Assembly: GCA_021292105.1 (NCBI GenBank)
Contig: CM037866.1
Coordinates: 2,155,256-2,219,255, forward strand
Reading direction: 5' to 3'
Length of the DNA: 64,000 bases
DNA from: Anadara kagoshimensis
Taxonomy: Eukaryota; Mollusca; Bivalvia; Arcoida; Arcidae
The position numbers were made by a program, and so were the translations under genes. Shown here piece by piece: positions 22,422-58,582 of the stretch. The notes under the pieces were generated by a model. It was not told the DNA's origin. It saw only the letters and a program-made list of their open reading frames with translations, and searched no databases. Position 1 is the first letter of the stretch. Each line of letters starts with the position of its first letter.

Positions 22422-25400
22422 CTAGAAATAAATTAAAATATAACTCATAAATTCTAAATGTGACATAGTCTCAAGCAAAGTCTGTACTTATTGACAAATT
22501 AATGGACCAACTAAAACTATATCAATTCCTAATTTTAAGATTTTTCTTGCATAATGATTAGTTAACTTGCTGGGTACATAAAACTTTGTTCGGGAATCTT
22601 CAGGGGTATATACAAGTACACAACGTTTAGCAGTAAAAGGGAAGTAATTTGTACACTGCTCTTAACTCTAGATACGGTAAACAAACATGGTGACAACCTC
22701 TAGATAGGGTAAACAAACATGGTGACAACCTCTAGATACGGTAAACAAACATGGTGACAACCTCTAGATACGGTAAACAAACATGGTGACAACCTCTAGA
22801 TACGGTAAACAAACATGGTGACAACCTCTAGATACGGTAAACAAACATGGTGACAACCTCTAGATACGGTAAACAAACATGGTGACAACCTCTAGATACG
22901 CGGTAAACAAACATGGTGACAACCTCTAGATACGGTAAACAAACATGGTGACAACCTCTAGATACGGTAAACAAACATGGTGACATCTTTCATAAGTTAC
23001 ACAGGATAAGAAATTAAAGTTAAACAGACCAAAATTTTACTGCTTTGAAGGGTGACCGGCCTTGCAGTTCAGGGTGCAAAAATCTTTGACAGGGTTAATG
23101 GGGCTGTGTAACCTGTCAAAAGCCTGTATAACTTATAATGTATCATGATATACCTGGTAATAATATTCTTACCTAATTCATTAGCAGCTGTAAATGTAGT
23201 TGTTCCAGACCTAGTGTCATAGTGACTGTTAGCGAATGCTAGGAAACTACGCTGTAAACGGCGATGTCGTATTACAAAGAATGACAACACAACAACCAGC
23301 GCTATGACGACCACGGACACTGACACTGCTATTGCTATGACGTTGGTTTTTGACAGCACTATAGTTTGTTTGGATGGCTCACTAATAATCACTGAAACAA
23401 GAAACAATAAGATAGTATTTATTAGGTTCATACAAATTAGGAGATAAGTGTGTTGCATTTGAAGAGTTGCAACAGTAAAATCAATGTTTTGTGGTCACAA
23501 CTCTTCAAATGCAGCACAGTTATCTCCATTCTAAATAACAACCTTTCACACAAAATGTTTCTCCATTTTAAATAATACTATAAAATCAACTGAATTTAAA
23601 TTAATGTAGATTTCCGCTGCTCCAATTAGACTTTATGTTTTGTACAAATGCATAAATGTAGACCCATATCTTTACACCAAAAATATAGTTCTATTACATA
23701 ATAGTAAATTCAAAAGTCTAATTATTACACCTCAGATAAGATTATTGAATTTTGATTGTTTTCTTTTGTAATCACTGTTTCCCACTTTTGACCAAAAAAA
23801 TCTCTGCTTTGTTTCACTCTTTCCCACTTTTGACCAAAATAATCTCTGCTTTGTTAACTATTGACCTGGTCAATATTAATAACTGGCAATGGCATTTAAA
23901 TTTCAATACAAACTATAAATTCATTCAAATTTTGAAACAAACTATAGACATTAAAACAACGGGAATACAAATTTTTGCTGTATTTTTTTCTCCTTATAAC
24001 ATTAAGTGGTCTCAAACAAAATTCAATATAATAAAAATGTACGAGGTCAATGTAGTGAAATGAGGTCCCTAGATCTGACCCTCTCAGTGGTCAGACCTTG
24101 AAGGTCAGGGTTAGGGTCCTCATTTCACCATATAGAACTCATACACAGTAAATAATTGTATAATACATACTTGATCCAGCAACATCTACTATATATGAGA
24201 ATGTCCCTGGATATCCCTGGTAAGCAGCCACTCGGACTTTGTATGAGGATTTTACTCCTGGTTTTGGTTGAACTATTACACTTGTATTTGTTGTTTTTGT
24301 CAGATATACAAATTTAGCGTCCTGATGATAATGTACCATTTTATTATCAAATTCTGTCTGTTTTTCATATATCTCGTATGTCTGAAAATTGAGAAATATT
24401 AAAATATTAATGTGTATCTGGCAGTAAAATTTGAGAAATATTAAAATGTTAGTGCATATTTTAGTAGATTAGATGAGAGACCCCCCTTTCCATCTCAATT
24501 TGTAGATGTCTATTTATTATGATTCAAAGTTAATCAATAATATTTCTTAATAAATAAACCCAACATAGAGCACACAACTCTCAAATCACCAGTTGAAGAG
24601 ATCGTGGGTTTGAATCCCGACTGGGTTTGACCAAGACTTGAATTTAGAAATCAAAGTCATGAGATCCTTCAAAAGAAACATAAAACATCACTCTCCAATA
24701 TCAGACCACCACTCTTCCATCCAAGAACACCATTTTTAAATCCAAGAACACAACTCTCCAATCTCAGAACACCATTTGGCACTAATGGATTTGCAAAAAT
24801 TTGTTACAATGATGAAATGTACATACCAGAGGAATATTTTTAGGAAAGTCTTCAGGACGAATCCATGCGAGTCGCACTGTTCCATCATTCTCAATGATTC
24901 TTTGGAAATCTAATGGTTCACCAATAGAAGCTGAAAAAATAAATATAACCAATATTAATAATATCCACCAAAATCAAGCTCTCCTCCAAATATTATAAAC
25001 GAATCAAAGTACTGAAAGTACTGTAAGACAATCTAATGAGAAAAAATGAATCCACACAGCCAAGCTTTCCTCAATGCAAGTGATAATTAAGAAACCAATA
25101 ATCAGAAATAATCAGATGCATAGAGAATGAACAAAATATGGCATTATAGAGAATTTTGAACTGTAATTTTTCATATTCACTTCTAAAAATGTTTTAATTA
25201 TGATTTATATTAACAGCCAAGTATACATGCATGACATTTTTTTTGTTTTTATTTTTTATTTCTTCATATCCATGAATATTGATTGGAAATTTGTGGAAAT
25301 TCATCCCATTTTTACATACATTTACAAGTACAGTCGAAACCACTTAATTGCATATCGGATAATCGCATAAATCGGTTAATCGCATAGGATTTTGAAATCC

Positions 25401-28400: not shown

Positions 28401-31400
28401 TGCCCCCTAGGTCACCTTGACCTAGTTTTGGTAGCAATGGCAACGCCACAAACAAATCTGAATCACACTGGCCCATGGATACTTCTGACTAAGTTTCATT
28501 GAAATCTGTTCATCAGTTTCAAAGAAGAAGTCGAACAATTGGTGTTAAGTGCTAGGGATGAATGCATGTACACAAGCCTGCACAATGCTGTTTGAAAATA
28601 TGCCTCTCCCAAGGTTCAATGTTTCTATGGTAACTATGAATTTGACATAAATGTATCAAGGGGATTTTATTGGTGTTCTAATGAAGTACAATTACCTGGT
28701 CCTATCTGCCGAGTGTGTACAGGACTGAGGGGACATATTCCTGGAGATGTTATCGCTATTCTGAAGGAGTATGATTCACATGACCGTAGATCGGTGATGA
28801 CCATGTCTTGTTTACCGACGACGGATTGACGGAAGGCTTTCTTGGCGATGTTTCTATCTTCCAGATAAATAGGATTATAACTATAGTAAACTGTATATTC
28901 CTGAAAAATATGACCAAAAAAATCTTAGTTACTTGATGCTATAGTAGAGCTTGATCCCACAGGAGGACCCAGTTTTTTAATAATTTCTTAAATAAGATTT
29001 TATTCAACTTAAATCTGGTAAATTTTAACGATCTATTATGCTGTAAATAAAAAGTGTCAACAAATTAGAATGTAGATGAAATCACAAAATAAAAATACAT
29101 TTTGTTGCTAAGGACTTTCTGCGTGATTGTTAAGTACATCAACTAGGTAAAACATTGACCTTCACCTGCCCTTCACCTCCAAAAGTTGTAAATCACTAGC
29201 TTACTGTAGGAACCACTGTGGCTGTGACAGTGAAATACTCTTTATATCCATAGAAAATCAAATAAATCTGAATAAAGATCGATATTTTTCACTTACTTGT
29301 ATCTAGTTGTAACAGGAAATCTGTATGCGCAACCGCGATTGTCATAAAATATGTCTGTAGAAAGGCAAATGTTGGCGGTATGGGGATTTAACATGTTGAA
29401 AAACCAGGCAAATGGCGGATTCTGTTGCGCATATGACGTAAAATGTCACCAAAGACATCACTTCCGGTGTAAACATCGTCATTTTCGCATGTATAAAATC
29501 CCCATACCGCCAACATTTTCCTTTCTACAGACATATTTTATGACAATCGCCGATGCGCATACAGATTTCCTATTATGACTAGGTACAAGTATGTGAATAA
29601 TATCAACCTTTATTTAAATTTATTTGATTTTCTATGGATATGAAGAGTATTTCACTGTCACAGTCACAGTGGTTCCTACAGTAAGCCAATTTAGCTAAAA
29701 ACAACACTAATACACATAAAGTATCTTTAAACCTCGAAAATTTAGACACCTCATAACTACATCACAATACAGTATGAATGACATAAGCTACACCAAATTA
29801 ATTTTCAATTTGTCAGATTTTTATTTTTATCAAACTCACCGTGTCTGCTGGAGCACCTGCAGGTTGATCCCATCTAACAGTTAACTGTCCAGGAGCTTTA
29901 CTTGTAAATGTTAAATTATTAGGAACTTCCAAAATATTTCCTACAATATAAAATAATAATTGAAAATTCTATCAAGTAAAAGAATCAGTTATCACCATGA
30001 ATCAGTCTGAATGAGAAATGGCAGGGATTCAAAATTCCCCAGCTCTGAGGTTCAGGACCAATTGATTTTACACTAGGACCCTTGATATTGAAACTGAAAA
30101 AGTCAGAAGCTGTTTTATTTTTTTTTACCAGCATAACAATACTTCTTCCATATGTTAATATAATTTCAATGACCTTTCAATGATGGTATTGGACTTTCAG
30201 AGCTTTATGTGCGACATGCCAAAAATAAAGACAAGGGGTCCTGGACCTTCCATAACAAAACATAATTTTGAATCTCTGAATGGGTTCAAACTCCTGGCCA
30301 GGTCTCACTCAAAACTTGAAAGTGGGTATTGACTTTTCTTTCGCCAAGAACTCATCATTACGAAATGAAAGTCAGAATTTGTTTTATCTTAAATGAGCTT
30401 TAACATGTTTAATGAGTTATTGACTCAAATAATTAGACTTAAGAATTTCCTCTACCTAACACAAAAGGTATCATTTAGGTGATATTACTGAGACTATTAC
30501 TGTCTAGACCCTAAGTAACTTATAGTGTTTACTTCCAATATGGGAGATCTGGGTTCCAAAGCTGGCCGCGTCTGGACAAGACTTGAAAATAGGTAAAACA
30601 TGTTCTTTTTCCATCAGTTTTGGCATTAAGAAATTAAAGTCATTGGGTTCTTCAATAAAGACCTTAATAACTGATGTCCTGTCACCACAGGCATGTTTAA
30701 GAACCCTATCTGCATATTACCCTTCACTTAAAAAGCATAAATTCCTACCACTTCACCCATAACTGGTGATGTCTCAGTATAAGTGAAACATTCTTGACTG
30801 GGATGTTAAACCCTAATCCCAAACTAACTACTTTGATATTATTGTTTCACTCCACAATTCCAAAACTGATAACCTTGATATTAAAGAAAGATTCTGGGGT
30901 GTAAACACCATTATTCCACTTCACTTCAAATACTAAGGAGACCTACCTTTTGCTTTATAAGGTATAGTCTTGCTAGGTCCAGTACCATGGTCATTATGGG
31001 CCTGTACATCAAACACATAGTAATATCCCCAACATAACTTATCAACTACAATATAAATACAATATTTTATAAGGTATAGTCTTGCTAGGTCCAGTACCAT
31101 GGTCATTATGGGCCTGTACATCAAACACATAGTAATATCCCCAACATAACTTATCAACTACAATATAAATACAATATTTTATAAGGTATAGTCCTGCTAG
31201 GTCCAGTACCATGGTCATTATGGGCCTGTACATCAAACACATAGTAATATCCCCAACATAACTTATCAACTACAATATAAATACAATATTTTATAAGGTA
31301 TAGTCCTGCTAGGTCCAGTACCGTGGTCATTATGGGCCTGTACATCAAACACATAGTAATATCCCCAACATAACTTATCAACTACAATATAAATACAATA

Positions 31401-34400
31401 TTTTATAAGGTATAGTCCTGCTAGGTCCAGTACCATGGTCATTATGGGCCTGTACATCAAACACATAGTAATATCCCCAACATAACTTATCAACTACAAT
31501 ATAAATACAATATTTTATAAGGTATAGTCCTGCTAGGTCCAGTACCATGGTCATTATGGGCCTGTACATCAAACACATAGTAATATCCCCAACATAACTT
31601 ATCAACTACAATATAAAGTTAAATACAATAATTATAAGAACATATAAAGACTATCTACCACCAAACTAGCAGAATTTACACCACATCAAACTAGAGCTGT
31701 CCCTTGAGTGCCATATACCCCCGGCCCCCAACATTTAATGTTTTTCCACAGCCTTGACCATTCTGATTTGACCTGACACACCTTTAGACCATATCGATTA
31801 TTCATGTGAAGTTTATAACAGTTTTCCAAAGCAATTATGAGATATGGCTGGGAAATGATTTTACACAGACAAACATACAGACAGGCAGACAGACAGACAG
31901 ACACACACATACACACAAGCAGATGGATGAACAGACAGACAGATAGACATGGTGTGCCCCCCTCTAGCAAACTAGTGCAAATCAGTCGGGAGGGTGAGGG
32001 TATAAAATACAATTTTTTTTGTATCATGGCAGCTATGAACAAGGGCTTTTAGAAAAAGCAAGATTCCAAGATGAGAGGCAATTGTTGTATTTGAATAATT
32101 CATCACTCCTAAAATTCAATGAAACAGAACAGGAAAACAACATGCATAACAACACATTTCATTGATCATTCCTGTAAAGTGTCATCCATATCTAATGGAG
32201 GGTATTGGAGAACTGATGTGGACAAAAAATGTGACACACAGACATCCAGATGATGGACAGATGGTCAGAATGCAGAACTATATCCTCTCGTGAATTTCTC
32301 AGAAAAAGAAATGTTGCAATTATCATGATTATTGTCTTGTTAAAGTTTGTCTTTCATTCTTCAAAATTTAAAACATTGAAAGTGCAAATATAACATACCT
32401 TAATGAAAGCTAGCATGGCGATAATCAGACCCAGGATTGGTAAGTATATTACTTTTTTCAGAAATTTTTTTGGTCATTAGCAACACATATATACCAAGAT
32501 GAAAAATATTGAAAAAAAAACCATATAAGATCTACTAACACTCATGTACAAATAAAAACATATATTTACTTATTATCTTTATCATTGTTGTGTGGCTACT
32601 GCATGATTTTGTCAGAATCATTCTTTTTGTATATCACAGATTTATGAGATTACAAAACAAATTGTTCAAAAGGGTGAAAAAAATTTAGGTTTGGCTTTAC
32701 CAAATAAAGCCCATCTGGAAACAGGGGAAAAAACACATTTGTTTGTTTGTTTGGCCTTAATACAGTACTTACTCTGAAAATGTGGGTCAGTAGTTGTTTT
32801 TGTTTGTTCATCTTCCCAGGCATCTTGATATGACACAACATAATCCTTGACTATTTTAGGGTCCTTAAATGGTGATTTCCAAGTTAACAAGGCGCTAGAA
32901 CCATTCCCTGTGACAGCCAGATCATCGACTGCCTTCTGTATGGCACCAGTGTCGTATACCATGGTTTTGACGTCAGTTTTACTCCCTTCTCCAGCAACTG
33001 TAAAGGCTGTTACCTGTAATACAACAAAAACAAACTAGAACTGTCTCCTGAGAGCCAAATACCCCCGCCCCCAACAAGTTTTCCTGCGACCTTGACCTTT
33101 CCAATGTGACCTTTGTTCAAGGCCATGACACACCTTAGGACCATGAAGATTTTTCATGTGAAGTTTTATAACAGTCATCCAAAGAAGCAATAAGATATGG
33201 CCCGGACATGATTTTAAACGGACAGACAGACATGGTGATTCCTATATACCCCTCTAAAACTAGTTTGCGGGTGATATAAATATTAGAAGTTATCCAAAAC
33301 GTAGCAAAACAAACATCTATTGGCCACTTGAATGTTGTACTATTTGATTGATGTTTCATAAATCAGAAGTCTCCATTTAGGGCCACACATTGAAGAATGG
33401 GGTTTGCCGCTATACCACGTGATACCCTCTAACGTTTGTGCGGTACACCTATTTCCATTGGATATGGAATTGCATTATCAGTTATATCTAAGGTCTAACT
33501 ATGGTTCAGATTTTTTAAATTACTTATAAGGAGACCTTTTATATCCCCATTTAGGGACCAACTCCTTTCATACCAGTTAATTAAGAATGACTTACCCAAA
33601 ATTCATATTCTTTTCCAAATGATAATTCTTGACTTGACAGCCGGAATGTAAAGTTTGTTTTGCCTTCAGCGGGAAAATTTCTGTAGCCAATATCTTTAGA
33701 ATCTTTACTTTGGTAATACAACTGTAAATGATAAAGCATTAACAATTATAATGATTAATACATGTATGTCAATGAAGTATATACAGTGTCATCCATAACA
33801 GGGCTCTACGATTGCAATTAAACTTCTTGTACTAGTGTGGCGACACCTTTAGGGGTTTCGCGGGAAAGAATGGAACAATCTAGAGGATTTCTATTAATAG
33901 AGCTCATCCACAGAACTTGCCACTCAAAAGTTTAACACAGACCTAAGGGATAAGTGCCAAACCTACCAATACTTTGGTAAAGAATTGGTTACTTTATTAT
34001 GGGTACGAATTCAAAACGGTACGTTAAATTTATTTTGAATGATAGGGCCTGGCCGACTTTAAACAGTTATTGTGGATTTTATGTGCAAGATAGAAAAAAT
34101 ATAAAAATACCGTCTTTTCTGTCAGATCTTAAACATTTTTCGGTCAATGGACGACTTTTTCGTACAATGAACGGCAAGATAGAAAAAATATAAAAATACC
34201 GTCTTTTCCGTCAGATCTTAAACATTTTTCGGTCAATGGACGACTTTTTCGTACAATGAACGGTTATTGAACAGGAGTGCGTTAAACGTAATTGTGTTTT
34301 GGAAAATTCATTTTTTGCATGTTTGACCCCAAAATTTAGTATGATACCGATTTTTCCCAAAAATTTCACCAAGTTAGATAGCCAGATCGTATTAGACTCC

Positions 34401-37400: not shown

Positions 37401-40400
37401 AATTTGCTACGAGAATTATCCAGTGTGCAAAATGACCAAATCTTTCATACTTACATAATTTTTTTTAAAATTTTATTTCTATAATGACCATACTTACACA
37501 TATGAGATGGTATAAACAGGGTTAGGTATATTAGCTGGCCTCCAATTCAACATGACACTGACACTTGTTCTTTCTTTCACAAAGATTTCTGACATAACTG
37601 CAATGAAATAAAAAACATTTAGAAACAAAATATAACCATGGCAACTCTAAATGTATCTATTTTCAATGTTTACTATTTTTAACCAAATTATAATTTGGGT
37701 AAATTGATGTGGACTTAAATTTGGCGTATATCTCATGAATCATTTAGTGCATGCACTATAATTGTATTTAATTTGGCAGTTGATTTAAACTAGAACTGTC
37801 TCTTGAGAGCCAAATACCCCCCCCCCCCTTTAACATTTAAAGTTTCCCTTGCGACCTTGACCTTTCTGATATGACCTTGGTTCAAGGTCATGACACACCT
37901 TTGGACCATGAAGATTATTCATGTGATGTTTTATGAGAGTGGTTCATAGCATTGACATGAAATGGCCCAGACAAGATTTTACATGGACAGACGGACAGAC
38001 AGACATTGCGATTCATATATTTCCACTCAAACTAGTTTGCAGAGGGGTATAAGTGCTACTGCATCATCATGGATGTCACTCAAATTAGTACACTGCTAAA
38101 ATTATGACAATATAATGAAAACTTTTGTCATGTACAGAAAAAGTAAGCCAGGCATGGTAGTAAAAAAACCATGTCACATGGTAATAAAAAAACCATGTCA
38201 TTCAAATCCCATCAGTACAACCGAATAAGAAATAATGATTAGTCTGTCTTAAAGGCCACCTCTATATAAAGGTCATCTACTTATAATTACAGTTTGTCTT
38301 AAAGGCCAACTCTATATAAAGGTCATCTACTTATAATTACAGTTTGTCTTAAAGGCCACCTCTATATAAAGGTCATCTACTTATAATTACAGTTTGTCTT
38401 AAAGGCCACCTCTATATAAAGGTCATCTACTTATAATTACAGTCTGTCTTAAAGGCCACCTCTATATAAAGATCATCTACTTATAATTACAGTTTGTCTT
38501 AAAGGCTACCTCTATATAAAGGTCATCTACTTATAATTACAGTTTGTCTTAAAGGCCACCTCTATATAAAGGTCATCTACTTATAATTACAGTCTGTCTT
38601 AAAGGCCACCTCTATATAAAGGTCATCTACTTATAATTACAGTCTGTCTTAAAGGCCACCTCTATATAAAGGTCATCTACTTATAATTACAGTCTGTCTT
38701 AAAGGCCACCTCTATATAAAGGTCATCTACTTATAATTACAGTCTGTCTTAAAGGCCACCTCTATATAAAGGTCATCTACTTATAATTACAGTTTGTCTT
38801 AAAGGCCACCTCTATATAAAGGTCATCTACTTATAATTACAGTTTGTCTTAAAGGCCACCTCTATATAAAGGTCATCTACTTATAATTACAGTCTGTCTT
38901 AAAGGCCACCTCTATATAAAGGTCATCTACTTATAATTACAGTCTGTCTTAAAGGCCACCTCTATATAAAGGTCATCTACTTATAATTACAGTTTGTCTT
39001 AAAGGCCACCTCTATATAAAGGTCATCTACTTATAATTACAGTTTGTCTTAAAGGCCACCTCTATATAAAGGTCATCTACTTATAATTACAGTTTGTCTT
39101 AAAGGCCACCTCTATATAAAGGTCATCTACTTATAATTACAGTCTGTCTTAAAGGCCACCTCTATATAAAGGTCATCTACTTATAATTACAGTTTGTCTT
39201 AAAGGCCACCTCTATATAAAGGTCATCTACTTATAATTACAGTTTGTCTTAAAGGCCACCTCTATATAAAGGTCATCTACTTATAATTACAGTCTGTCTT
39301 AAAGGCCACCTCTATATAAAGGTCATCTACTTATAATTACAGTTTGTCTTAAAGGCCACCTCTATATAAAGGTCATCTACTTATAATTACAGTTTGTCTT
39401 AAAGGCCACCTCTATATAAAGGTCATCTACTTATAATTACAGTTTGTCTTAAAGGCCACCTCTATATAAAGGTCATCTACTTATAATTACAGTCTGTCTT
39501 AAAGGCCACCTCTATATAAAGGTCATCTACTTATAATTACAGTTTGTCTTAAAGGCCACCTCTATATAAAGGTCATCTACTTATAATTACAGTCTGTCTT
39601 AAAGGCCACCTCTATATAAAGGTCATCTACTTATAATTACCGTCTGTCTTAAAGGCCACCTCTATATAAAGGTCATCTACTTATAATTACAGTCTGTCTT
39701 AAAGGCCACCTCTATATAAAGGTCATCTACTTATAAAGGCCAGTAGAATTGTATCCCAATTGTTTTTTATTCATATTATTTGAGCTTGTGTATACAGGTC
39801 ACCTGCCAATAAAGGCCACTTTTACTGGTTCCCTTGGTGGCCTTTATCGACAGGTTTGACTGTATATAAGGACCACCTGTCCATAAAGACCACTTTTACT
39901 TGTCCCCGTGGGTGGCCTTTATCGACAGGTTTGACTGTATATAAGGGCCACCTGTCTATAAAGACCACTTTAACTTGTCCCCGTGGATGGCCTCTATCGA
40001 CAGGTTTGACTGTAACTATAAACCAACTTTTATGCAATTAATTGCTGCGTGTTTGGCGAGAACAAAATAGTTGCAAACGTTAATTGATGGAAACTTATTT
40101 TTGAAAATGGTATTATTTATACCAAACATTAAAGTCAAAGTTAATTGCGAAAGTTAATAGTCTCAAAATGGTTTTTGCAAGAGAATCAGGAACATTACCG
40201 GTAATATCCATGAATAACAGTTGGTTTACAGTAATAATCAAAAAAAAAAAAAAAGAGCAAATTTTTGTAATATTTTGCAAGTCCCAAAAAAGCGAAAATT
40301 TCCAGTCACAAAAAATTCATTTACAGTACTTACCCTTTGGATTGTCACAAAATGAAGCTTCATAGCATGGATTTACACACAGATCCATGTATAACACACA

Positions 40401-43400
40401 CTGCCTTGATAATAAACATGTACTTACCCTTTGGCTTGTCACAAAATGAAGCTTCATAGCATGGATTTACACACAGATCCATGTATAACACACACTGCCT
40501 TGATAATAAACATGTAAAGTAGATATCACTCTGACAGCTGAAGGGAGGGGGAGGCTTCACAGACGCTGAAAAAAATAAACAAAAGGTAATTTTTACTTCA
40601 ATACCTTTTTTGACAATTTACAATAAAGATATCTATGTATGTTTCAAAATTTCTCGAGTAAATATGGAAGAATTTAGAAGTAGACAGACATTACCAAGTA
40701 TTACAGATATGTGAGCAATACTGATGTATGCTGATTGGTGGGCAAGTATAACAGATGTTTAATAAGCAAGGGAGATAACATACTGCCCCGTCAGAGTTCC
40801 GTTACAAATCATTACAATAACGTCCAAGGGAGATAACATTACTGCCCCGTCAGAGTTCCGTTACAACGTCCAAGGGAGATAACATTACTGCCCCGTCAGA
40901 GTTCTGTTACAACGTCCAAGGGAGATAACATTACTGCCCCGTCAGAGTTCCATTACAAATCATCACAATAACGTCCAAGGGAGATAACATTACTGCCCCG
41001 TCAGAGTTCCGTTACAACATCCAAGGGAGATAACATTACTGCCCCGTCAGAGTTCCGTTACAAATCATCACAATAACGTCCAAGGGAGATAACATTACTG
41101 CCCGTCAGAGTTCTGTTACAAATCATCACAATAACTCCAAGGGAGATAACATTACTGCCCCGTCAGAGTTCTGTTACAAATCATCACAATAACGTCCAAG
41201 GGAGATAACATTACTGCCCCGTCAGAGTTCTGTTACAACGTCCAAGGGAGATAACATTACTGCCCCGTCAGAGTTCCGTTACAAATCATCACAATAACGT
41301 CCAAGGGAGATAACATTACTGCCCCGTCAGAGTTCTGTTACAAATCATCACAATAACGTCCAAGGGAGATAACATTACTGCCCCGTCAAAGTTCTGTTAC
41401 AACATCCAAGGGAGATAACATTACTGCCCCGTCAGAGTTCCGTTACAAATCATCACAATAACGTCCAAGGGAGATAACATTACTGCCCCGTCAGAGTTCC
41501 GTTACAACATCCAAGGGAGATAACATTACTGCCCTGTCAGAGTTCCGTTACAACATCCAAGGGAGATAACATTACTGCCCCGTCAGAGTTCCGTTACAAC
41601 GTCCAAGGGAGATAACATTACTGCCCCGTCAGAGTTCCGTTACAACATCCAAGGGAGATAACATTACTGCCCCGTCAGAGTTCCGTTACAAATCATCACA
41701 ATAACGTCCAAGGGAGATAACATTACTGCCCCGTCAGAGTTCTGTTACAAATCATCACAATAACGTCCAAGGGAGATAACATTACTGCCCCGTCAGAGTT
41801 CCGTTACAACATCCAAGGGAGATAACATTACTGCCCTGTCAGAGTTCTGTTACAAATCATCACAATAACGTCCAAGGGAGATAACATTACTGCCCCGTCA
41901 GAGTTCTGTTACAACATCCAAGGGAGATAACATTACTGCCCCGTCAAAGTTCTGTTACAACATCCAAGGGAGATAACATTACTGCCCCGTCAAAGTTCTG
42001 TTACAACATCCAAGGGAGATAACATTACTGCCCCGTCAAAGTTCTGTTACAACATCCAAGGGAGATAACATTACTGCCCCGTCAAAGTTCTGTTACAACA
42101 TCCAAAGGAGATAACATTACTGCCCCGTCAAAGTTCTGTTACAAATCATCACAATAACGTCCAAGGGAGATAACATTACTGCCCCGTCAGAGTTCTGTTA
42201 CAACATCCAAGGGAGATAACATTACTGCCCTGTCAGAGTTCTGTTACAAATCATCACAATAACGTCCAAGGGAGATAACATTACTGCCCCATCAAAGTTC
42301 TGTTACAAATCATCACAATAACGTCCAAGGGAGATAACATTACTATCCCGTCAGAGTTCCAATACAACGTCCAAGGGAGATAACATTACTGCTCCGTCAG
42401 AGTTCCATTACAACGTCCAAGGGAGATAACATTACTGCCCCGTCAGAGTTCCATTACAACGTCCAAGGGAGATAACATTACTGCCCCGTCAGAGTTCTGT
42501 TACAACATCCAAGGGAGATAACATTACTGCCCCGTCAAAGTTCCGTTACAAATCATCAAAATAACGTCCAAGGGAGATAACATTACTGCCCCGTCAAAGT
42601 TCTGTTACAAATCATCACAATAACCTCCAAGGGAGATAACATTACTGCCCCGTCAAAGTTCCGTTACAAATCATCACAATAACCTCCAAGGGAGATAACA
42701 TTACTACCCCGTCAGAGTTCTGTTACAAATCATCACAATAACGTCCAAGGGAGATAACATTACTGCCCCGTCAAAGTTCTGTTACAAATCATCACAATAA
42801 CGTCCAAGGGAGATAACATTACTGCCCCGTCAGAGTTCTGTTACAAATCATCACAATAACCTCCAAGGGAGATAACATTACTGCCCCGTCAAAGTTCTGT
42901 TACAAATCATCACAATAACGTCCAAGGGAGATAACATTACTGCCCCGTCAGAGTTCCATTACAAATCATCACAATAACGTCCAAGGGAGATAACATTACT
43001 GCCCCGTCAGAGTTCTGTTACAAATCATCACAATAACGTCCAAGGGAGATAACATTACTGCCCCGTCAGAGTTCTGTTACAAATCATCACAATAACCTCC
43101 AAGGGAGATAACATTACTGCCCCGTCAGAGTTCCGTTACAATGTCCAAGGGAGATAACATTACTGCCCCGTCAGAGTTCTGTTACAAATCATCACAATAA
43201 CGTCCAAGGGAGATAACATTACTGCCCCGTCAGAGTTCTGTTACAAATCATCACAATAACCTCCAAGGGAGATAACATTACTGCCCCGTCAGAGTTCCGT
43301 TACAACGTCCAAGGGAGATAACATTACTGCCCCGTCAAAGTTCTGTTACAAATCATCACAATAACGTCCAAGGGAGATAACATCACTGCCCCGTCAGAGT

Positions 43401-46400
43401 TCCATTACAACGTCCAAGGGATAAATTACTGCCCCGTCAGAGTTCCATTACAACGTCCAAGGGAGATAACATTACTGCCCCGTCAGAGTTCCATTACAAC
43501 GTCCAAGGGAGATAACATTACTGCCCCGTCAGAGTTCTGTTACAACATCCAAGGGAGATAACATTACTGCCCCGTCAAAGTTCCGTTACAAATCATCAAA
43601 ATAACGTCCAAGGGAGATAACATTACTGCCCCGTCAAAGTTCTGTTACAAATCATCACAATAACCTCCAAGGGAGATAACATTACTGCCCCGTCAAAGTT
43701 CCGTTACAAATCATCACAATAACGTCCAAGGGAGATAACATTACTGCCCCGTCAAAGTTCTATTACAAATCATCACAATAACATCCAAGGGAGATAACAT
43801 TACTGCCCCGTCAAAGTTCCGTTACAAATCATCACAATAACGTCCAAGGGAGATAACATTACTGCCCCGTCAAAGTTCTGTTACAAATCATCACAATAAC
43901 GTCCAAGGGAGATAACATTACTGCCCCGTCAGAGTTCTGTTACAAATCATCACAATAACGTCCAAGGGAGATAACATTACTGCCCCGTCAAAGTTCTGTT
44001 ACAAATCATCACAATAACGTCCAAGGGAGATAACATTACTGCCCCGTCAGAGTTCCATTACAAATCATCACAATAACGTCCAAGGAGATAACATTACTGC
44101 CCCGTCAGAGTTCTGTTACAAATCATCACAATAACGTCCAAGGGAGATAACATTACTGCCCCGTCAGAGTTCTGTTACAAATCATCACAATAACCTCCAA
44201 GGGAGATAACATTACTGCCCCGTCAGAGTTCCGTTACAACGTCCAAGGGAGATAACATTACTGCCCCGTCAGAGTTCCGTTACAACGTCCAAGGGAGATA
44301 ACATTACTGCCCCGTCAGAGTTCTGTTACAAATCATCACAATAACGTCCAAGGGAGATAACATTACTGCCCGTCAGAGTTCTGTTACAAATCATCACAAT
44401 AACCTCCAAGGGAGATAACATAACTGCCCCGTCAGAGTTCCGTTACAACGTCCAAGGGAGATAACATTACTGCCCCGTCAAAGTTCTGTTACAAATCATC
44501 ACAATAACGTCCAAGGGAGATAACATCACTGCCCCGTCAGAGTTCCATTACAACGTCCAAGGGAGATAACATTACTGCCCCGTCAGAGTTCCATTACAAC
44601 GTCCAAGGGAGATAACATTACTGCCCCGTCAGAGTTCCATTACAACGTCCAAGGGAGATAACATTACTGCCCCGTCAGAGTTCTGTTACAACATCCAAGG
44701 GAGATAACATTACTGCCCCGTCAAAGTTCCGTTACAAATCATCAAAATAACGTCCAAGGGAGATAACATTACTGCCCCGTCAAAGTTCTGTTACAAATCA
44801 TCACAATAACCTCCAAGGGAGATAACATTACTGCCCCGTCAAAGTTCCGTTACAAATCATCATAATAACGTCCAAGGGAGATAACATTACTGCCCCGTCA
44901 AAGTTCTATTACAAATCATCACAATAACATCCAAGGGAGATAACATTACTGCCCCGTCAGAGTTCCGATACAAATCATCACAATAACATCCAAGGGAGAT
45001 AACATTACTGCCCCGTCAGAGTTCCGTTACAAATCATCACAATAACGTCCAAGGGAGATAACATTACTGCCCCGTCAGAGTTCTGTTACAAATCATCACA
45101 ATAACGTCCAAGGGAGATAACATTACTGCCCCGTCAGAGTTCTGTTACAAATCATCACAATAACGTCCAAGGGAGATAACATTACTGCCCCGTCAGAGTT
45201 CGGTTACAACATCCAAGGGAGATAACATTACTGCCCTGTCAGAGTTCTGTTACAAATCATCACAATAACGTCCAAGGGAGATAACATTACTGCCCCGTCA
45301 GAGTTCTGTTACAACATCCAAGGGAGATAACATTACTGCCCCGTCAAAGTTCTGTTACAACATCCAAGGGAGATAACATTACTGCCCCGTCAAAGTTCTG
45401 TTACAACATCCAAGGGAGATAACATTACTGCCCCGTCAAGTTCTGTTACAACATCCAAGGGAGATAACATTACTGCCCCGTCAAAGTTCTGTTACAAATC
45501 ATCACAATAACGTCCAAGGGAGATAACATTACTGCCCCGTCAGAGTTCTGTTACAACATCCAAGGGAGATAACATTACTGCCATGTCAGAGTTCTGTTAC
45601 AAATCATCACAATAACGTCCAAGGGAGATAACATTACTGCCCCATCAAAGTTCTGTTACAAATCATCACAATAACGTCCAAGGGAGATAACATTACTGCC
45701 CCGTCAGAGTTCCATTACAACGTCCAAGGGAGATAACATTACTGCCCCGTCAGAGTTCCATTACAACGTCCAAGGGAGATAACATTATTGCCCCGTCAGA
45801 GTTCCATTACAACGTCCAAGGGAGATAACATTACTGCCCCGTCAGAGTTCTGTTACAACATCCAAGGGAGATAACATTACTGCCCTGTCAGAGTTCTGTT
45901 ACAAATCATCACAATAACGTCCAAGGGAGATAACATTACTGCCCCTCAAAGTTCTGTTACAAATCATCACAATAACGTCCAAGGGAGATAACATTACTGC
46001 CCCGTCAGAGTTCCATTACAACGTCTAAGGGAGATAACATTACTGCCCCGTCAGAGTTCCATTACAACGTCCAAGGGAGATAACATTACTGCCCCGTCAG
46101 AGTTCTGTTACAACATCCAAGGGAGATAACATTACTGCCCCGTCAGAGTTCCGATACAAATCATCACAATAACGTCCAAGGGAGATAACATTACTGCCCC
46201 GTCAGAGTTCTGTTACAAATCATCACAATAACATCCAAGGGAGATAACATTACTGCCCCGTCAAAGTTCCGTTACAAATCATCACAATAACGTCCAAGGG
46301 AGATAACATTACTGCCCCGTCAGAGTTCCGATACAAATCATCACAATAACATCCAAGGGAGATAACATTACTGCCCCGTCCGAGTTCCATTACAAATCAT

Positions 46401-49400
46401 CACAATAACGTCCAAGGGAGATAACATTACTGCCCCGTCAGAATTCCGATACAAATCATCACAATAACGTCCAAGGGAGATAACATTACTGCCCCGTCAG
46501 AGTTCCGATACAAATCATCACAATAACGTCCAAGGGAGATAACATTACTGCCCCGTCAGAGTTCCGTTACAAATCATCACAATAACGTCCAAGGGAGATA
46601 ACATTACTGCCCAGTCAGAGTTCCGATACAAATCATCACAATAACGTCCAAGGGAGATAACATTACAGCCCCGTCAGAGTTCCGATACAAATCATCACAA
46701 TAACATCCAAGGGAGATAACATTACTGCCCCGTCAAAGTTCCGTTACAACATCCAAGGGAGATAACATTATTGCCCCGTCAGAGTTCCGTTACAAATCAT
46801 CACAATAACGTTCCAAGGGAGATAACATTACTGCCCCGTCAGAGTTCTGTTACAAATCATCACAATAACATCCAAGGGAGATAACATTACTGCCCCGTCA
46901 AAGTTCCGTTACAAATCATCACAACAACGTCCAAGGGAGATAACATTACTGCCCCGTCAGAGTTCCATTACAAATCATCACAATAACGTCCAAGGGAGAT
47001 AACATTACTGCCCCGTCAAAGTTCCGTTACAACATCCAAGGGAGATAACATTACTGCCCCGTCAAGTTCCGTTACAAATCATCACAATAACGTCAAGGGA
47101 GATAACATTACTGCCCCGTCAGAGTTCCGATACAAATCATCACAATAACATCCAAGGGAGATAACATTACTGCCCCATCAAGTTCCGTTACAACATCCAA
47201 GGGAGATAACATTACTGCCCCGTCAAAGTTCCGTTACAAATCATCACAATAACGTCCAAGGGAGATAACATTACTGCCCCGTCAGAGTTCCGATACAAAT
47301 CATCACAATAACATCCAAGGGAGATAACATTACTGCCCCGTCAAAGTTCCGTTACAACATCCAAGGGAGATAACATTACTGCCCCGTCAAAGTTCCGTTA
47401 CAAATCATCACAATAACGTCCAAGGGAGATAACATTACTGCCCCGTCAGAGTTCCGATACAATCATCACAATAACATCCAAGGGAGATAACATTACTGCC
47501 CCGTCAAAGTTCCGTTACAAATCATCACAATAACGTCCAAGGGAGATAACATTACTGCCCCGTCAGAGTTCCGATACAAATCATCACAATAACATCCAAG
47601 GGAGATAACATTACTGCCCCGTCAAAGTTCCGTTACAACATCCAAGGGAGATAACATTACTGCCCCGTCAAAGTTCCGTTACAAATCATCACAATAACGT
47701 CCAAGGGAGATAACATTACTGCCCCGTCAGAGTTCCGATACAAATCATCACAATAACGTCCAAGGGAGATAACATTACTGCCCCGTCAGAGTTCCGTTAC
47801 AAATCATCACAATAACGTCCAAGGAAGATAACATTACTGCCCCGTCAGAGTTCTGTTACAACATCCAAGGGAGATAACATTACTGCCCCGTCAGAGTTCT
47901 GTTACAAATCATTACAATAACATCCAAGGGAGATAACATTACTGCCCGTCAGAGTTCTGTTACAAATCATCACAATAACGTCCAAGGGAGATAACATTAC
48001 TGCCCCGCCAGAGTTCTGTTAAAAATCATCACAATAACGTCCAAGGGAGATAACATTACTGCCCCGTCAGAGTTCTGTTACAACATCCAAGGGAGATAAC
48101 ATTACTGCCCCGTCAGAGTTCTGTTACAAATCATTACAATAACGTCCAAGGGAGATAACATTACTGCCCCGTCAGAGTTCTGTTACAAATCATCACAATA
48201 ACGTCCAAGGGAGATAACATTACTGCCCCGTCAGAGTTCTGTTACAAATCATCACAATAACGTCCAAGGGAGATAACATTACTGCCCCGTCAGAGTTCTG
48301 TTACAAATCATCACAATAACGTCCAAGGGAGATAACATTACTGCCCCGTCAAAGTTCCGTTACAACGTTCAAGGGAGATAACATTACTGCCCCGTCAGAG
48401 TTCCATTACAAATCATCACAATAACGACCAAGGGAGATAACATTACTGCCCCGTCAGAGTTCCGTTACAAATCATCACAATACATCCAAGGGATAACATT
48501 ACTGCCCCGTCAGAGTTCCGTTACAAATCATCACAATAACATCCAAGGGAGATAACATTACTGCCCCGTCAGAGTTCCGTTACAAATCATCACAATAACA
48601 TCCAAGGGAGATAACATACTGCCCCGTCAAAGTTCCGTTACAAATCATCACAATAACGTCCAAGGGAGATAACATTACTGCCCCGTCAAGTTCCGTTACA
48701 AATCATCACAATAACGTCCAAGGGAGATAACATTACTGCCCCGTCAAAGTTCCGTTACAAATCATCACAATAACGTCGAAGGGAGATAACATTACTGCCC
48801 TGCAGAGTTCTGTTACAAATCATCACAATAACGTCCAAGGGAGATAACATTACTGCCCCGTCAAAGTTCCGTTACAACGTCCAAGGGAGATAACATTACT
48901 GCCCCGTCAGAGTTCCGTTACAAATCATCACAATAACATCCAAGGGAGATAACATTACTGCCCCGTCAGAGTTCCGTTACAAATCATCACAATAACGTCC
49001 AAGGGAGATACCATTACTGCCCCGTCAAAGTTCCTTTACAACGTCCATGGGAGATAACATTACTGCCCCGTCAGAGTTCTGTTACAAATCATCACAATTA
49101 TGTCCAACCCAAAATATTGTTTTGGCATTAAAAATATACATGTATAATGAGGATCTTGACAAGTCAGGGTTTAATATGAAATTTATTAAACAAGTTTCAT
49201 ACTTAAATATGCCACGAGGATTGGCACTACACACCATATCAAGTATATAAGTCATCACCTTTGTCATCCAGCTAAAAATGTAGCCTTTCGTTAGCGTCAT
49301 AATTGAGGTATAAGCTTCAGTATGAATCAGATTTGAAGAATCAGTCATATTGTTTTCAAGCACACTAGGATATACATCATACTGCTGATATAATAACTCA

Positions 49401-50034: not shown

Positions 50035-53000
50035 ACTGTATACCAAAACGGTAATTAGTTTTTCACATGAATTTTACTATGATCCTTAATATATTATTAA
50101 GATATTGTGTTCATTTTGTAAATTATCCCAATTCTGATACCGACTTATGTAGTTTGAGCAGGATAACTACTACGTCAAACTAGGACTCGATACCAAGGAT
50201 TGTACATACACACTGTTATATAATACCAAGGATTGTACATACACACTGCGTAAATAATATGTATATATAAAGTCTGTACCTCCACAGTGTTTCTCATCAG
50301 TCTCGTCAGTACAATCCGCCGAGTTGTCACAGACCCAACTTTCTGGTATACACTTGGGGTCATGGTCTATATCACAGGAGAATGTACCTACAGCACATGA
50401 TGGTGGGGTAGGACTTGATGTTCCTAGAAGTAGAAAAAATTTGTAACTATAAAACATATATACTCGGAAACAGCCAATAAAACTAAGAACATAACTTATG
50501 ACAAACAGGTCACAACAAAGAAGAACATAAATTTGCATGGGAGTAAATGTTCAGTGCTATTACTGAAGGGTCCTAAACAATCACACTTATTTTACAAATA
50601 GTTATCCGCAAATAAATACATACATTTAAAATTCAACAAATTTAGTAATTAGGTCAGTAGGTACTTTTTTGTGATTTGCACTTATATCAAAAGGGCCATA
50701 ACTCCCAAGAAAATCAGCAAACCAACTTGGGTTAATGAAAAGATATGTCTATAATGAAACTACTCACTACAGTGACATTCATCACTATTATCTCTAGTTA
50801 TCTTATGTTCAAAAGGGCCATAACTTCCTGGAAAATCAGTAGGGTTATTAATATATTTATAACTACTCACTACAGTGATATTCGTCACTATAATCGCCAC
50901 AGTTATCTTATGTTCAAAGGGCCATAACTCCTTGGAAAATCAGTAGGGTTAATGATATATCTATAACTACTCACTACAATTATATTCGTCACTATAATCG
51001 CCACAGTTATCTTATGTTCAAAGGGCCGTAACTCCCTGGAAAATCAGTAGGGTTAATGATATATCTATAACTACTCACTACAATTATATTCGTCACTATA
51101 ATCGCCACAGTTATCTTATGTTCAAAGGGCCATAACTCCTTGGAAAATCAGTAGGGTTAATGATATATCTATAACTACTCACTACAATTATATTCGTCAC
51201 TATAATCGCCACAGTTATCTTATGTTCAAAGGGCCATAACTCCTTGGAAAATCAGTAGGGTTATTAATATATATAACTACTCACTACAATTATATTCGTC
51301 ACTATAATCGCCACAGTTATCTTATGTTCAAAGGGCCATAACTCCTTGGAAAATCAGTAGGGTTAATGATATATCTATAACTACTCACTACAATTATATT
51401 CGTCACTATAATCGCCACAGTTATCTTATGTTCAAAGGGCCGTAACTCCCAGGAAAATCAGTAGGGTTATTAATATATTTATAACTACTCACTACAGTGA
51501 TATTCGTCACTATAATCGCCACAGTTATCTTATGTTCAAAGGGCCGTAACTCCCAGGAAAATCAGTAGAGTTAATGATATATCTATAAATACTCACTACA
51601 ATTATATTCGTCACTATAATCGCCACAGTTACCTTATGTTCAAAGGGCCATAACTCCTTGGAAAATCAGTAGGGTTATTAATATATCTATAATTACTCAC
51701 TACAATTATATTCGTCACTATAATCGCCACAGTTATCTTATGTTCAAAGGGCCGTAACTCCCAGGAAAATCAGTAGGGTTATTAATATATTTATAACTAC
51801 TCACTACAGTGATATTCGTCACTATAATCGCCACAGTTATCTTATGTTCAAAGGGCCATAACTCCCAGGAAAATCAGTAGGGTTAATGATATATTTATAA
51901 ATACTCACTACAATGATATTCGTCACTATAATCGCCACAGTTATCTCTGCCATCACATCTAAGCCAGATACCAATACATCGTCCATTGTCACAGCGGAAC
52001 ATGTCAAAGATACACGGTCTGCTGGTCGTGTTGGGTTGAACAGAAGGTCTGGAAGTTACTAAATAATTAAAAATGAAAATAAAAACATGGTAAGAATCAA
52101 ACAAGAACAAAAAATCTGTGAGTTACTGCTCACTTAGTATACGCCCACTTTTAACAGCTCACTTAGTATATCCCCAGTTTAACAGCTCACTTAGCATATC
52201 CCCAGTTTAACAGCTCACTTAGTATATCCCCAGTTTAACAGCTCACTTAGCATATCCCCAGTTTAACAGCTCACTTAGTATATCCCCAGTTTAACAGCTC
52301 ACTTAGTATATCCCCAGTTTAACAGCTCACTTAGTATATCCCCAGTTTAACAGCTCACTTAGTATATCCCCAGTTTAACAGCTCACTTAGTATATCCCCA
52401 GTTTAACAGCTCACTTAGTATATCCCCAGTTTAACAGCTCACTTAGCATATCCCCACTTTGAACAGCTCACTTAGTATACGCCCACTTTTAACAGCTCAC
52501 TTAGTATATCCCCAGTTTAACAGCTCACTTAGCATATCCCCAGTTTAACAGCTCACTTAGTATATCCCCAGTTTAACAGCTCACTTAGTATATCCCCAGT
52601 TTAACAGCTCACTTAGCATATCCCCACTTTGAACAGCTCACTTAGTATACCCCCACTTTGAAGAGCTCAAAAATTCAAATATCACACGAACATTACACTG
52701 CACAGATATTTCTATGTTGACATACATATGTAGTATTCAATAAGATTTCAAACGCGAATTCAAATATTCACGAATAAGGCCAAGATGGTTTTGATGCAAA
52801 ATTTTATCCTCGCAAAAAATAAGTGATCTACAGTAGTTTGAGCATCATAGCAATACTCACAAGTAAAAGATCTACAAGAAAGTCATTTCTAGGCTCATAT
52901 ACATTTGTAAAATTTGCATAACATTCATGTATAACATGGCAAGAAAATTACTTCAGTAAAGTATATTTTGCACATAAATTTATTTTTATTTTCACTTTTA

Positions 53001-56000: not shown

Positions 56001-58582
56001 CTACTACAGTACAAAAGTGTGACATATGGACAGACAGACAGACAGACGGAATGATTTACTACAGTATAGACCTGTTGAAAGTTTAATGTTACGCTAACAG
56101 TTTACTGCTAAATCAGAGACTTGTCTTGGTCCCTAGTAAGCTATACATGTATGTCGACAGTTGCCACTATCCATTTGCTGAAGCTTTTTAATTGTTAGCT
56201 ATTAACATATCTGCCCCGGTCGAATGTCGATTTCTTTTTGTAAGCTTACTGTTTAACTTTAACCGGCCAGTGCTGTATACTCTGTATTTGTGTATTCAGA
56301 ATTCTATTTTTCCCGACATTCTTGGCCAATTGAGGATATTTGTAAATTTGATAATTATTTTCTCTACATACAAAAATTAATACAATGATTAAAATTTTTC
56401 ATGTATTTTTCCTTGTCAGTATTTTTGTTTTTAAACACACATGGTCGGTCATTTATGAGAAAGAAAATTATAATGTAGCATACAAAAGACGAATACAAGT
56501 ACAATAACTCACCATTATAATTACAATGTAATTCATCAGTGCCGTCATGACAATCGTCGTCATAGTCACACTGCCACTTTTTCACAATACATCTGCCATT
56601 ACCACAACGGAACTCAAGATCTGTACAATTTCTATATCCTAAAACACAGGAAAAATAGAAAAATCTTAGATAAATCATTGAGTTATAGTTAGTTAATCAA
56701 AGCACTGATGGTGCTGATTGAACAGAGGAAAAACACAGGAAAAATAGAAAAATCTTAGATAAATCATTGAGTTATAGTTTGTTAATCAAAGCACTGATGG
56801 TGCTGATTGAACAGAGCATGACCTTCATGAGATCAAGTAGTCATGATGTTAATCCCCACATTGAACCAAATAATACTGTAAACATATCTATTTTCATGAT
56901 GTACTAATTTGCGCTTATTTCGCGGTCGTTTGTTTTGCCTGAAAATTAATACCAAGCGAAAATTATATTATGCTTATTGTCTTATAGTGCATATTTTAGA
57001 ATCGCAAAAATTTAACAACAAAAATATGTCTAAATTTTCTATACCCCGAAAATAATTACACGCGAAATTATATATGTTAATTTAACAGTAAATCAGCTGA
57101 ATGGTCTAGATTGTCCCTGTGAAGTCTCTGAACCCTTTGTAGTCCCTAAAACCTATGAAGTCCCTAAACCTTGTGACGTCCCTAAACCCTATAAAGTCCC
57201 CTAACACTTTGTTAAATTGTAGTCCCTGAGCCCTTTGAAGTCCCTAAACCCTATGAAGTCCCTAATCCCTATAAAGTCCCCAAATCCTTTGTAGTCGTCC
57301 CTAAACCCTATGAAGTCCCTAAACCCTATGAAGTCCCTAATCCCTATAAAGTCCCCAAACCCTTTGTAGTCCCTGAACCCTTTGAAGTCCCTAAACCTTG
57401 TGACGTCCCTAAACCCTATAAAGTCCCCAAATCCTTTGTAGTCCCTAACCCTATGAGGTCCCTAAACCTTGTGACGTCCCTGAACCCTTTGTAGTCCCAG
57501 AGCCCTTTGAAGTCCCTAAAACTTGTGACGTCCCTAAACTCTATAAAGTCCCCAAATCCTTTGTAGTCCCTAACCCTATGAAGTCCCTAAACTCTATGAA
57601 GTCCCTAAACCCTATAAAGTCCCGAAACCCTTTGTAGTCCCTGAACCCTTTGAAGTCCCTAAACCTTGTGACATCCCTAAACCCTATAAAGTCCCGAATC
57701 CTTTGTAGTCCCTAACCCTATGAAGTCCCTAACCCTATGAAGTCCCTAAACCCTATAAAGTCCCCGAACCCTTTGTAGTCCCTAAGCCTTTGAAGTCCCT
57801 AAACCTTGTGAAGTCCCTAAACCCTATAAAGTCCCCAAACCCTTTGCAGTCCCTAAACCCTATAAAGTCCCCAAATCCTTTGTAGTCCCTGAGCCCTTTG
57901 AAGTCCCTAAAACTTGTGACGTCCCTAAACTCTATAAAGTCCCCGAATCCTTTGTAGTCCCTAACCCTATGAAGTCCCTAAACCCTATGAAGTCCCTAAA
58001 CCCTATAAAGTCCCCAAACCCTTTGTAGTCCCTGAACCCTTTGAAGTCTCTAAACCTTGTGACATCCCTAAACCCTATAAAGTCCCGAATCCTTTGTAGT
58101 CCCTAACCCTATGAAGTCCCTAAACCCTATGAAGTCCCTAAACCCTATAAAGTCCCCAAACCCTTTGTAGTCCCTAAGCCTTTGAAGTCCCTAAACCTTG
58201 TGACGTCCCTAAACCCTATAAAGTCCCCGAACCCTTTGTAGTCCCTAAACCCTATGAAGTCCCTGAACTTTTGTAGTCCCTGAATCCTTTTTAGTCCCTG
58301 AATCCTTTTTAAGTCCTTAAGCCTTGTGAGGTACCTAAACCCTATGAAGTCCCTAAACCTTGTGAAGTCCCTGAACCCTTTGTAGTCCCTGAATCCTTTG
58401 AAGTCCCTAAGCCTTGTGAGGTCCCCGAACCCGGTGAAAAAACCTGAACTCTGTGAAGTCCCTGGAATTGTGATATAATCATGTTAATGTGTCTATAAAG
58501 CCATGTGAATGGGAAAATGAAGCTCCATAAAAAAAAATTAAATTCACTGGGCTTGTAATTACAATAAGAATAATATATATAT

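Follow-up and report, generated by a model that had tools for sequence, protein, structure and literature searches.

Organization of the array and of its reading frames

The window analysed here is a stretch of 64,000 nucleotides of Anadara kagoshimensis DNA (contig CM037866.1, positions 2,155,256 to 2,219,255), and its minus strand carries exons of a SORL1-like sorting-receptor gene in which one exon edge, a 3′ splice site together with most of an FN3 exon, is repeated in tandem. Positions without a contig prefix are those of the window and are collected in Table 1. Tandem Repeats Finder placed the repeat at 30954-31617 on the minus strand (period 112, 5.9 copies, 99% matches). Exact searches found six acceptors TGTAG/TTGATAAG (the slash marks the splice site) at 112-bp spacing, with exon starts at 31605, 31493, 31381, 31269, 31157 and 31045, and one donor for the whole array, AAAG/GTAGGT, whose first intron base is 30946. 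The six tandem copies of an FN3 exon with its 3′ splice site described in the first-pass annotation are therefore present, with a different composition of the unit: comparison with the complete copy gives 92 exon-identical and 20 intron-derived nucleotides, not about 86 and 26. The same annotation regarded the five upstream acceptors as identical. It is the five acceptors nearest the donor that share an identical 23-nt site (-20 to +3), whereas the furthest-upstream one keeps the older intron and a tract 6 nt longer (AACTTT). A branch-point-like CTTAT is found in every unit, 25 nt before the exon and, in the furthest-upstream copy, 30 nt before it. The acceptor sequence is AG/TT and not the dual-specific AGGT.

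The exon preceding the array leaves one base and the exon following it needs two. The frame joined from 33013 to 28696 is open solely via the acceptor at 31045, with matching phases on both sides, which bears out the proposal of a single productive copy nearest the donor. The other five acceptors, when joined to exon 33013-32773, all lead to a stop after 118 residues, namely the TGA TAA at the beginning of the unit that follows, as had also been predicted. The introns around the productive exon are long (1,727 and 1,006 nt). Entry at the nearest upstream competitor gives an exon of 211 nt; the placed exons of the gene span 99-271 nt. A candidate exon at about 32450-32401 with a donor-like ATTAAG/GTATGT was rejected because its phase-1 frame contains a stop and the one that is open does not fit.

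Second copy of the locus

The genome (1.115 Gb in 36 contigs) was searched, and one further copy of the locus was found, inverted, on the same contig (C10) at a distance of 0.9 Mb. Its array has 22 acceptors, and because the array recurs in this way chance is excluded as the cause of the pattern. A greedy chain made in 110 kb fetched around the second copy gave 48 collinear blocks of at least 300 bp, amounting to 59.2 kb with a mean identity of 93.5%; the block adjoining the array is 97.1% identical between the copies, and the final copies of the two arrays differ by one synonymous base. The second copy is probably the contig of the other haplotype, placed backwards, with a real inverted duplication as the alternative. 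It spans C10:1230269 to beyond 1466000, and one of its ends is at or near a 1,000-N gap (1229269-1230268). The stretch at 2002000 matches its mirror place partly (717 of 4,000 bases), and for the stretch at 2302000 a mirror match was absent among the best candidates listed.

Twenty-one exons were mapped to the second copy. The 19 ungapped ones differ by 30 synonymous and 9 nonsynonymous codons, which corresponds to a proportion of synonymous differences (pS) of 0.049, a proportion of nonsynonymous differences (pN) of 0.0039 and a pN/pS of about 0.08. Because this ratio is so low, the codon comparison indicates that a working protein is selected for, and most simply the array exon would be kept along with it. 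The two exons with gaps were left out of the count: one has a net 1-nt deletion in an A run, the other two compensating 1-nt indels. An array of 38 bp x 2.9 (C10:1287461-1287561), seen in the second copy only, lies directly before the exon that matches 35804-35692.

Deviations from the consensus are found in two of the five non-final units of the window array, at one base each, and in 10 of the 21 non-final units of the second array, at one or two places each and including two 1-nt deletions. These deletions and the amino acid changes among the unit differences (A/D, L/I, H/Q, G/C and R/K) are as expected of non-coding copies. The variant T58C (unit position 58) occurs in both arrays, and both copies have the same 70 bp ahead of the first acceptor, including the AACTTT that the other units lack. 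The unit variants, together with the shared T58C and the shared 70 bp, suggest that the array predates the split of the two copies, was homogenised and has changed in number since that split. The exon end (CTTATAAA) and the intron (CTTATAAT) have CTTATAA in common, likely a microhomology at the join, and the join itself involves one or two further changes.

The host gene

The gene has been classified as SORL1-like, and is called here a SORL1 orthologue, on the domains predicted from its exons. Frames read by eye on the minus strand comprise YWTD and cysteine-rich parts at 61-63 kb, LDLa exons at 50-59 kb (not every LDLa exon could be placed) and FN3 exons at 24-38 kb. In Pfam, the LDLa exon 52058-51909 matched PF00057 above the cut-off and the joined chain of FN3 domains 1-4 contained four fn3 stretches; fn3_SORL1 (PF25814) reached 20.7 bits, below its cut-off of 27, and the LDLa-like exon 40565-40428 had no Pfam match. 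The chain of the sixth FN3 domain with the transmembrane part gave no fn3 match in Pfam, and FN3 domains 5 and 6 were placed by eye; in the same reading of frames the first exon of the fifth domain was not found. A phase break between 28696 and 27089 indicates a missing exon. The start of the cytoplasmic tail carries a FANSHY motif, which we take to be a mark of SORL1. Similarity searches against solved structures, including a PDB sequence search of the transmembrane and tail part, returned no SORL1 entry. Two exons with VPS10 (PF15902) matches above the cut-off are situated on the same strand about 5.8-11 kb beyond the high end of the window (C10:2225056-2225244 and C10:2230081-2230266). Another VPS10 gene occurs twice on one contig with near-equal scores (C6:6664866 and C6:9479515) and is perhaps a further retained haplotype.

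Table 1 Features of the SORL1-like gene in the window
Feature	Position	Strand	Basis or remark
Transmembrane exon and start of cytoplasmic tail with FANSHY	23173..23391	-	read directly
Downstream exon, start of fourth FN3 domain, needs two bases	29840..29940	-	
Sole donor of the array, GTAGGT	30941..30946	-	
Productive 99-nt exon, placed as second half of third FN3 domain	30947..31045	-	fn3 in joined chain (Pfam)
112-bp array with six 3′ splice sites, each followed by most of the FN3 exon	30954..31617	-	repeat and exact searches
AG of productive acceptor	31046..31047	-	exact search
Five unproductive acceptors	31158..31607	-	AGs 31158-31159, 31270-31271, 31382-31383, 31494-31495, 31606-31607
Acceptor with older intron and 6-nt longer tract	31606..31607	-	AG
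Upstream exon, first half of third FN3 domain, leaves one base	32773..33013	-	
Exon 40565-40428 with duplicated end and donor (94 bp x 2)	40326..40565	-	donor Gs 40427, 40333
Mirror array, 104-bp unit: last 38 nt of LDLa exon and donor	50758..51946	-	12 donor-bearing copies
LDLa exon with repeated donor	51909..52058	-	LDLa by Pfam

Arrays at other exon boundaries

Two further exons of the gene have a repeated edge, and in both it is the donor side. In the mirror array of the LDLa exon the last copy is diverged, and reading on past the first donor (G at 51908) soon leads to a stop codon. Counted at steps of about 104 bp among matches with at most 4 substitutions, its donors number 12 in the window versus 5 in the second locus copy. 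At exon 40565-40428 the second donor of the two-copy array (40326-40516) introduces a stop; two donors are present in both locus copies, in the second one 81 bp apart. In each of the boundary arrays (3/3) the shortest distance across the exon belongs to the productive site, a pattern that follows from the geometry of the duplication.

Tandem arrays with a period of at least 20 and a length of at least 60 bp make up 30.5% of the window, and their share rises to 36.4% in the gene span. Exon boundaries fall in them in 3 of 44 cases (22 placed exons); without the exon at 40565 the count is 2 of 42. For the 44 boundaries the average over 2,000 circular shifts was 16.0, and only 8 of the shifts gave three or fewer. 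Arrays are common in the gene and scarce at its exon edges, and the three boundary arrays are the exceptions. Long arrays within the gene span are located at 38241-39736 and 40767-49107 (50 bp x 30, and 46/59-bp units over 8 kb). An 89-bp x 2 array (56641-56816) ends in the acceptor tract of exon 56638-56513, and an AG is missing from the corresponding site of its extra copy.

Strength of the competing splice sites

Splice-site matrices were built from the 21 other exons of the same gene. The competing acceptors proved to be near equal, with a score of 5.36 for the first, furthest-upstream one and 7.02 for each of the other five. The donor at 30946 scored 7.5 and the next best GT inside the array 2.46. 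The other acceptors of the gene have a leave-one-out median of 9.75 and a range of -0.8 to 13.5, the lowest value possibly reflecting a misplaced exon boundary. A YTNAY motif is present in just 11 of these 21 acceptors, so the CTTAT motif constitutes weak evidence of a branch point.

The rule that the first AG wins operates downstream of a selected branch point. Every unit has its own branch-point-like CTTAT, and because of this the competition is between complete 3′ splice sites; the situation had earlier been described as the reverse of that rule, a wording which does not quite apply here. Since the 23-nt acceptor is identical, the core site is unable to choose among the five downstream acceptors, and position is the likeliest main decider that remains. 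The donor scores, with no other GT of the array above 2.5, agree with exon definition from the single donor as the likeliest way in which the site is selected. No inverted repeats of at least 14 bp (seed 9) that could form RNA hairpins hiding the upstream acceptors were detected within 30930-32780. Recursive or two-step splicing was considered and rejected, since TT and not GT follows the acceptor and among the GTs of the array only the real donor scores above 2.5.

Discussion

We consider it probable that the array is a mirage, the name given in the lancelet to minisatellite-like tandem duplications of exon-intron boundaries (PMC3087553, PMC3902484), and that its splice sites are paired across the exon, the upstream copies being removed with the intron and the last acceptor being used. 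We infer the following course of events. By a tandem duplication, the end region of the FN3 exon (..CTTATAAA) would have come to lie next to the branch-point region of the intron that precedes this exon (..CTTATAAT..), so that each new copy would be born as CTTAT, tract, AG and 92 nt of exon, without the exon end and the donor. Unequal exchange or slippage may then have produced 6 units in one locus copy and 22 in the other. With long introns on both sides the splice sites would be paired across the exon: U1 on the sole donor would favour the closest of the 3′ splice sites, 99 nt away, against its competitors at distances of 211-659 nt, and the intron would take the upstream copies out with it. 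The receptor would still be made because the long flanking introns lead to pairing across the exon, and the preference of the spliceosome for the closest pair of sites across the exon would explain why chance duplications are tolerated. Most likely, then, the array is neutral in origin and is resolved by exon definition.

The experimental background comes from the published parts of the work of Carranza et al. (PMC9225289) that are cited here. The switch between intron and exon definition has been placed there at an intron length of 200-250 nt, and because the introns between the placed exons of the SORL1-like gene are at least 311 nt long, exon definition is to be expected. In minigenes with two identical strong donors the exon-proximal donor was used exclusively, and weakened donors with large exons gave mainly skipping (PMC9225289).

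Several points weigh against this interpretation. The array acceptors belong to the lower part of the gene's own score range. The three boundary arrays alone are no proof of a proximity rule, because their geometry forces the nearest site to be the productive one. For human 3′ splice sites the cited part of PMC9225289 describes an upstream preference that is reduced in long-intron exons, without stating a reversal, and according to the part of PMC5389562 used here splicing is inhibited or slowed when two 3′ splice sites are occupied. Because double occupancy slows splicing and the human upstream preference is merely reduced, it is possible that a part of the transcripts is wasted through the upstream acceptors. 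Finally, the indels of the second copy, with one net frameshift, are either sequencing errors or a sign of early decay.

A leaky choice, in which all acceptors would be partly used, the upstream transcripts degraded and the output merely lowered by the copy number, is unlikely in our opinion, although it draws on real features of the locus: the five downstream acceptors share their 23-nt site, the 211-nt exon of the first upstream competitor is within the size range of the exons of this gene, and at human 3′ splice sites the upstream preference is merely weakened (PMC9225289, in the part cited). The protein constraint shows that enough correct mRNA is made, which is compatible with some loss, and in the passages cited lancelet mirages were reported without splicing disturbance (PMC3087553, PMC3902484). 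A regulated decoy, with the upstream acceptors acting as a switch that lowers SORL1 or yields a soluble receptor cut short behind the third FN3 domain, would account for the same stop being reached from every upstream entry and for the retention of the array, with a common variant at unit position 58, in both copies. We think it very improbable, given that the upstream units show no sign of selection beyond homogenisation and that tandem arrays take up 36% of the gene span, which makes neutrality the default.

The related idea that the arrays serve as copy-number dials, such that the share of productive or soluble SORL1 would depend on whether an allele has 6 or 22 decoy acceptors (and 12 or 5 donors) and the variation among animals would be under selection, is a long shot. 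Mis-assembly of a single exon is scarcely credible as the source of the array: there is one assembly, and the second copy has 1-nt indels typical of less polished sequence, but both copies carry the array between the same flanks, with different numbers and unit variants, and instead of a collapsed array the second copy shows a longer one. Pairing across the exon with use of the last acceptor is the reading we prefer.

How the right site is chosen at repeated exon edges is of interest since, in the literature as cited here, the minigene test of the exon-side proximity rule concerned donors, and human 3′ splice sites showed a weakened upstream preference. In the SORL1-like gene a single constrained gene offers 6 and 22 near-identical acceptors as well as 12 and 5 near-identical donors, a natural competition that would make a good test bed for the rule on both sides of the exon. 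This array-rich genome largely keeps its arrays off the exon edges of the gene, and the exceptions are visible there.

Comparison with known systems

Intron-side proximity of competing splice sites has reportedly been dealt with by Reed and Maniatis. Tandem alternative splice sites are spaced by a few nucleotides. They resemble the array in offering several acceptors per exon; those described in the cited part of PMC8055015 are very close together, whereas the SORL1 acceptors are 112 nt apart. The polyubiquitin gene UBC (PMC10809524, as far as cited) is likewise a coding gene with a tandem array and repeated splice sites, but its sites are AGGT and are used both ways, and the AG/TT of SORL1 cannot act as a donor. 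The exon-centric proximity rule of Carranza et al. 2022 (PMC9225289) also concerns near-equal competing sites in long-intron genes; its minigene test, in the part cited, involved two sites and donors, whereas the competition in SORL1 is natural and involves 6 and 22 acceptors.

Variable tandem repeats at exon-intron boundaries have been described in human segmental duplications by De Grassi and Ciccarelli in 2009 (PMC2812944). There, too, a minisatellite lies across a boundary and its copy number varies between near-identical gene copies. The human repeats have an average size of 30 bp x 4, and the passages used treat those at boundaries as a source of novel introns; the SORL1 unit differs in carrying a 3′ splice site of which one copy is productive.

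The closest anatomy is that of the lancelet mirages, as presented in the parts of the two papers cited. In BflGb6 the intron end and the start of exon 2 are repeated six times on one haplotype and three times on the other, in units of 150-160 bp that are 81-100% identical, and in BflGb9 an exon 3′ boundary has one duplicate (PMC3087553). In PGBD5, repeats of 60 and 108 bp extend across splice sites, and mirages without aberrant mRNAs are cited for Adh and TnC (PMC3902484). Going by reverse-transcription PCR and by earlier data on Adh3, mirages seem not to interfere with regular splicing (PMC3087553); the SORL1 array, in contrast, is known from DNA sequence alone. Units that span a boundary, vary in copy number and are homogenised are common to both systems: the acceptor units of SORL1 combine 92 nt of exon with 20 nt of intron, number 6 versus 22 and, at 112 bp, are nearly identical, and the donors number 12 versus 5. 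Unlike the lancelet cases cited, the SORL1 gene has acceptor and donor arrays in one gene and a counted protein constraint. By anatomy, homogenisation and variable number, the SORL1 array can be assigned to the mirages of the lancelet type, as a large and clean example and not a new kind.

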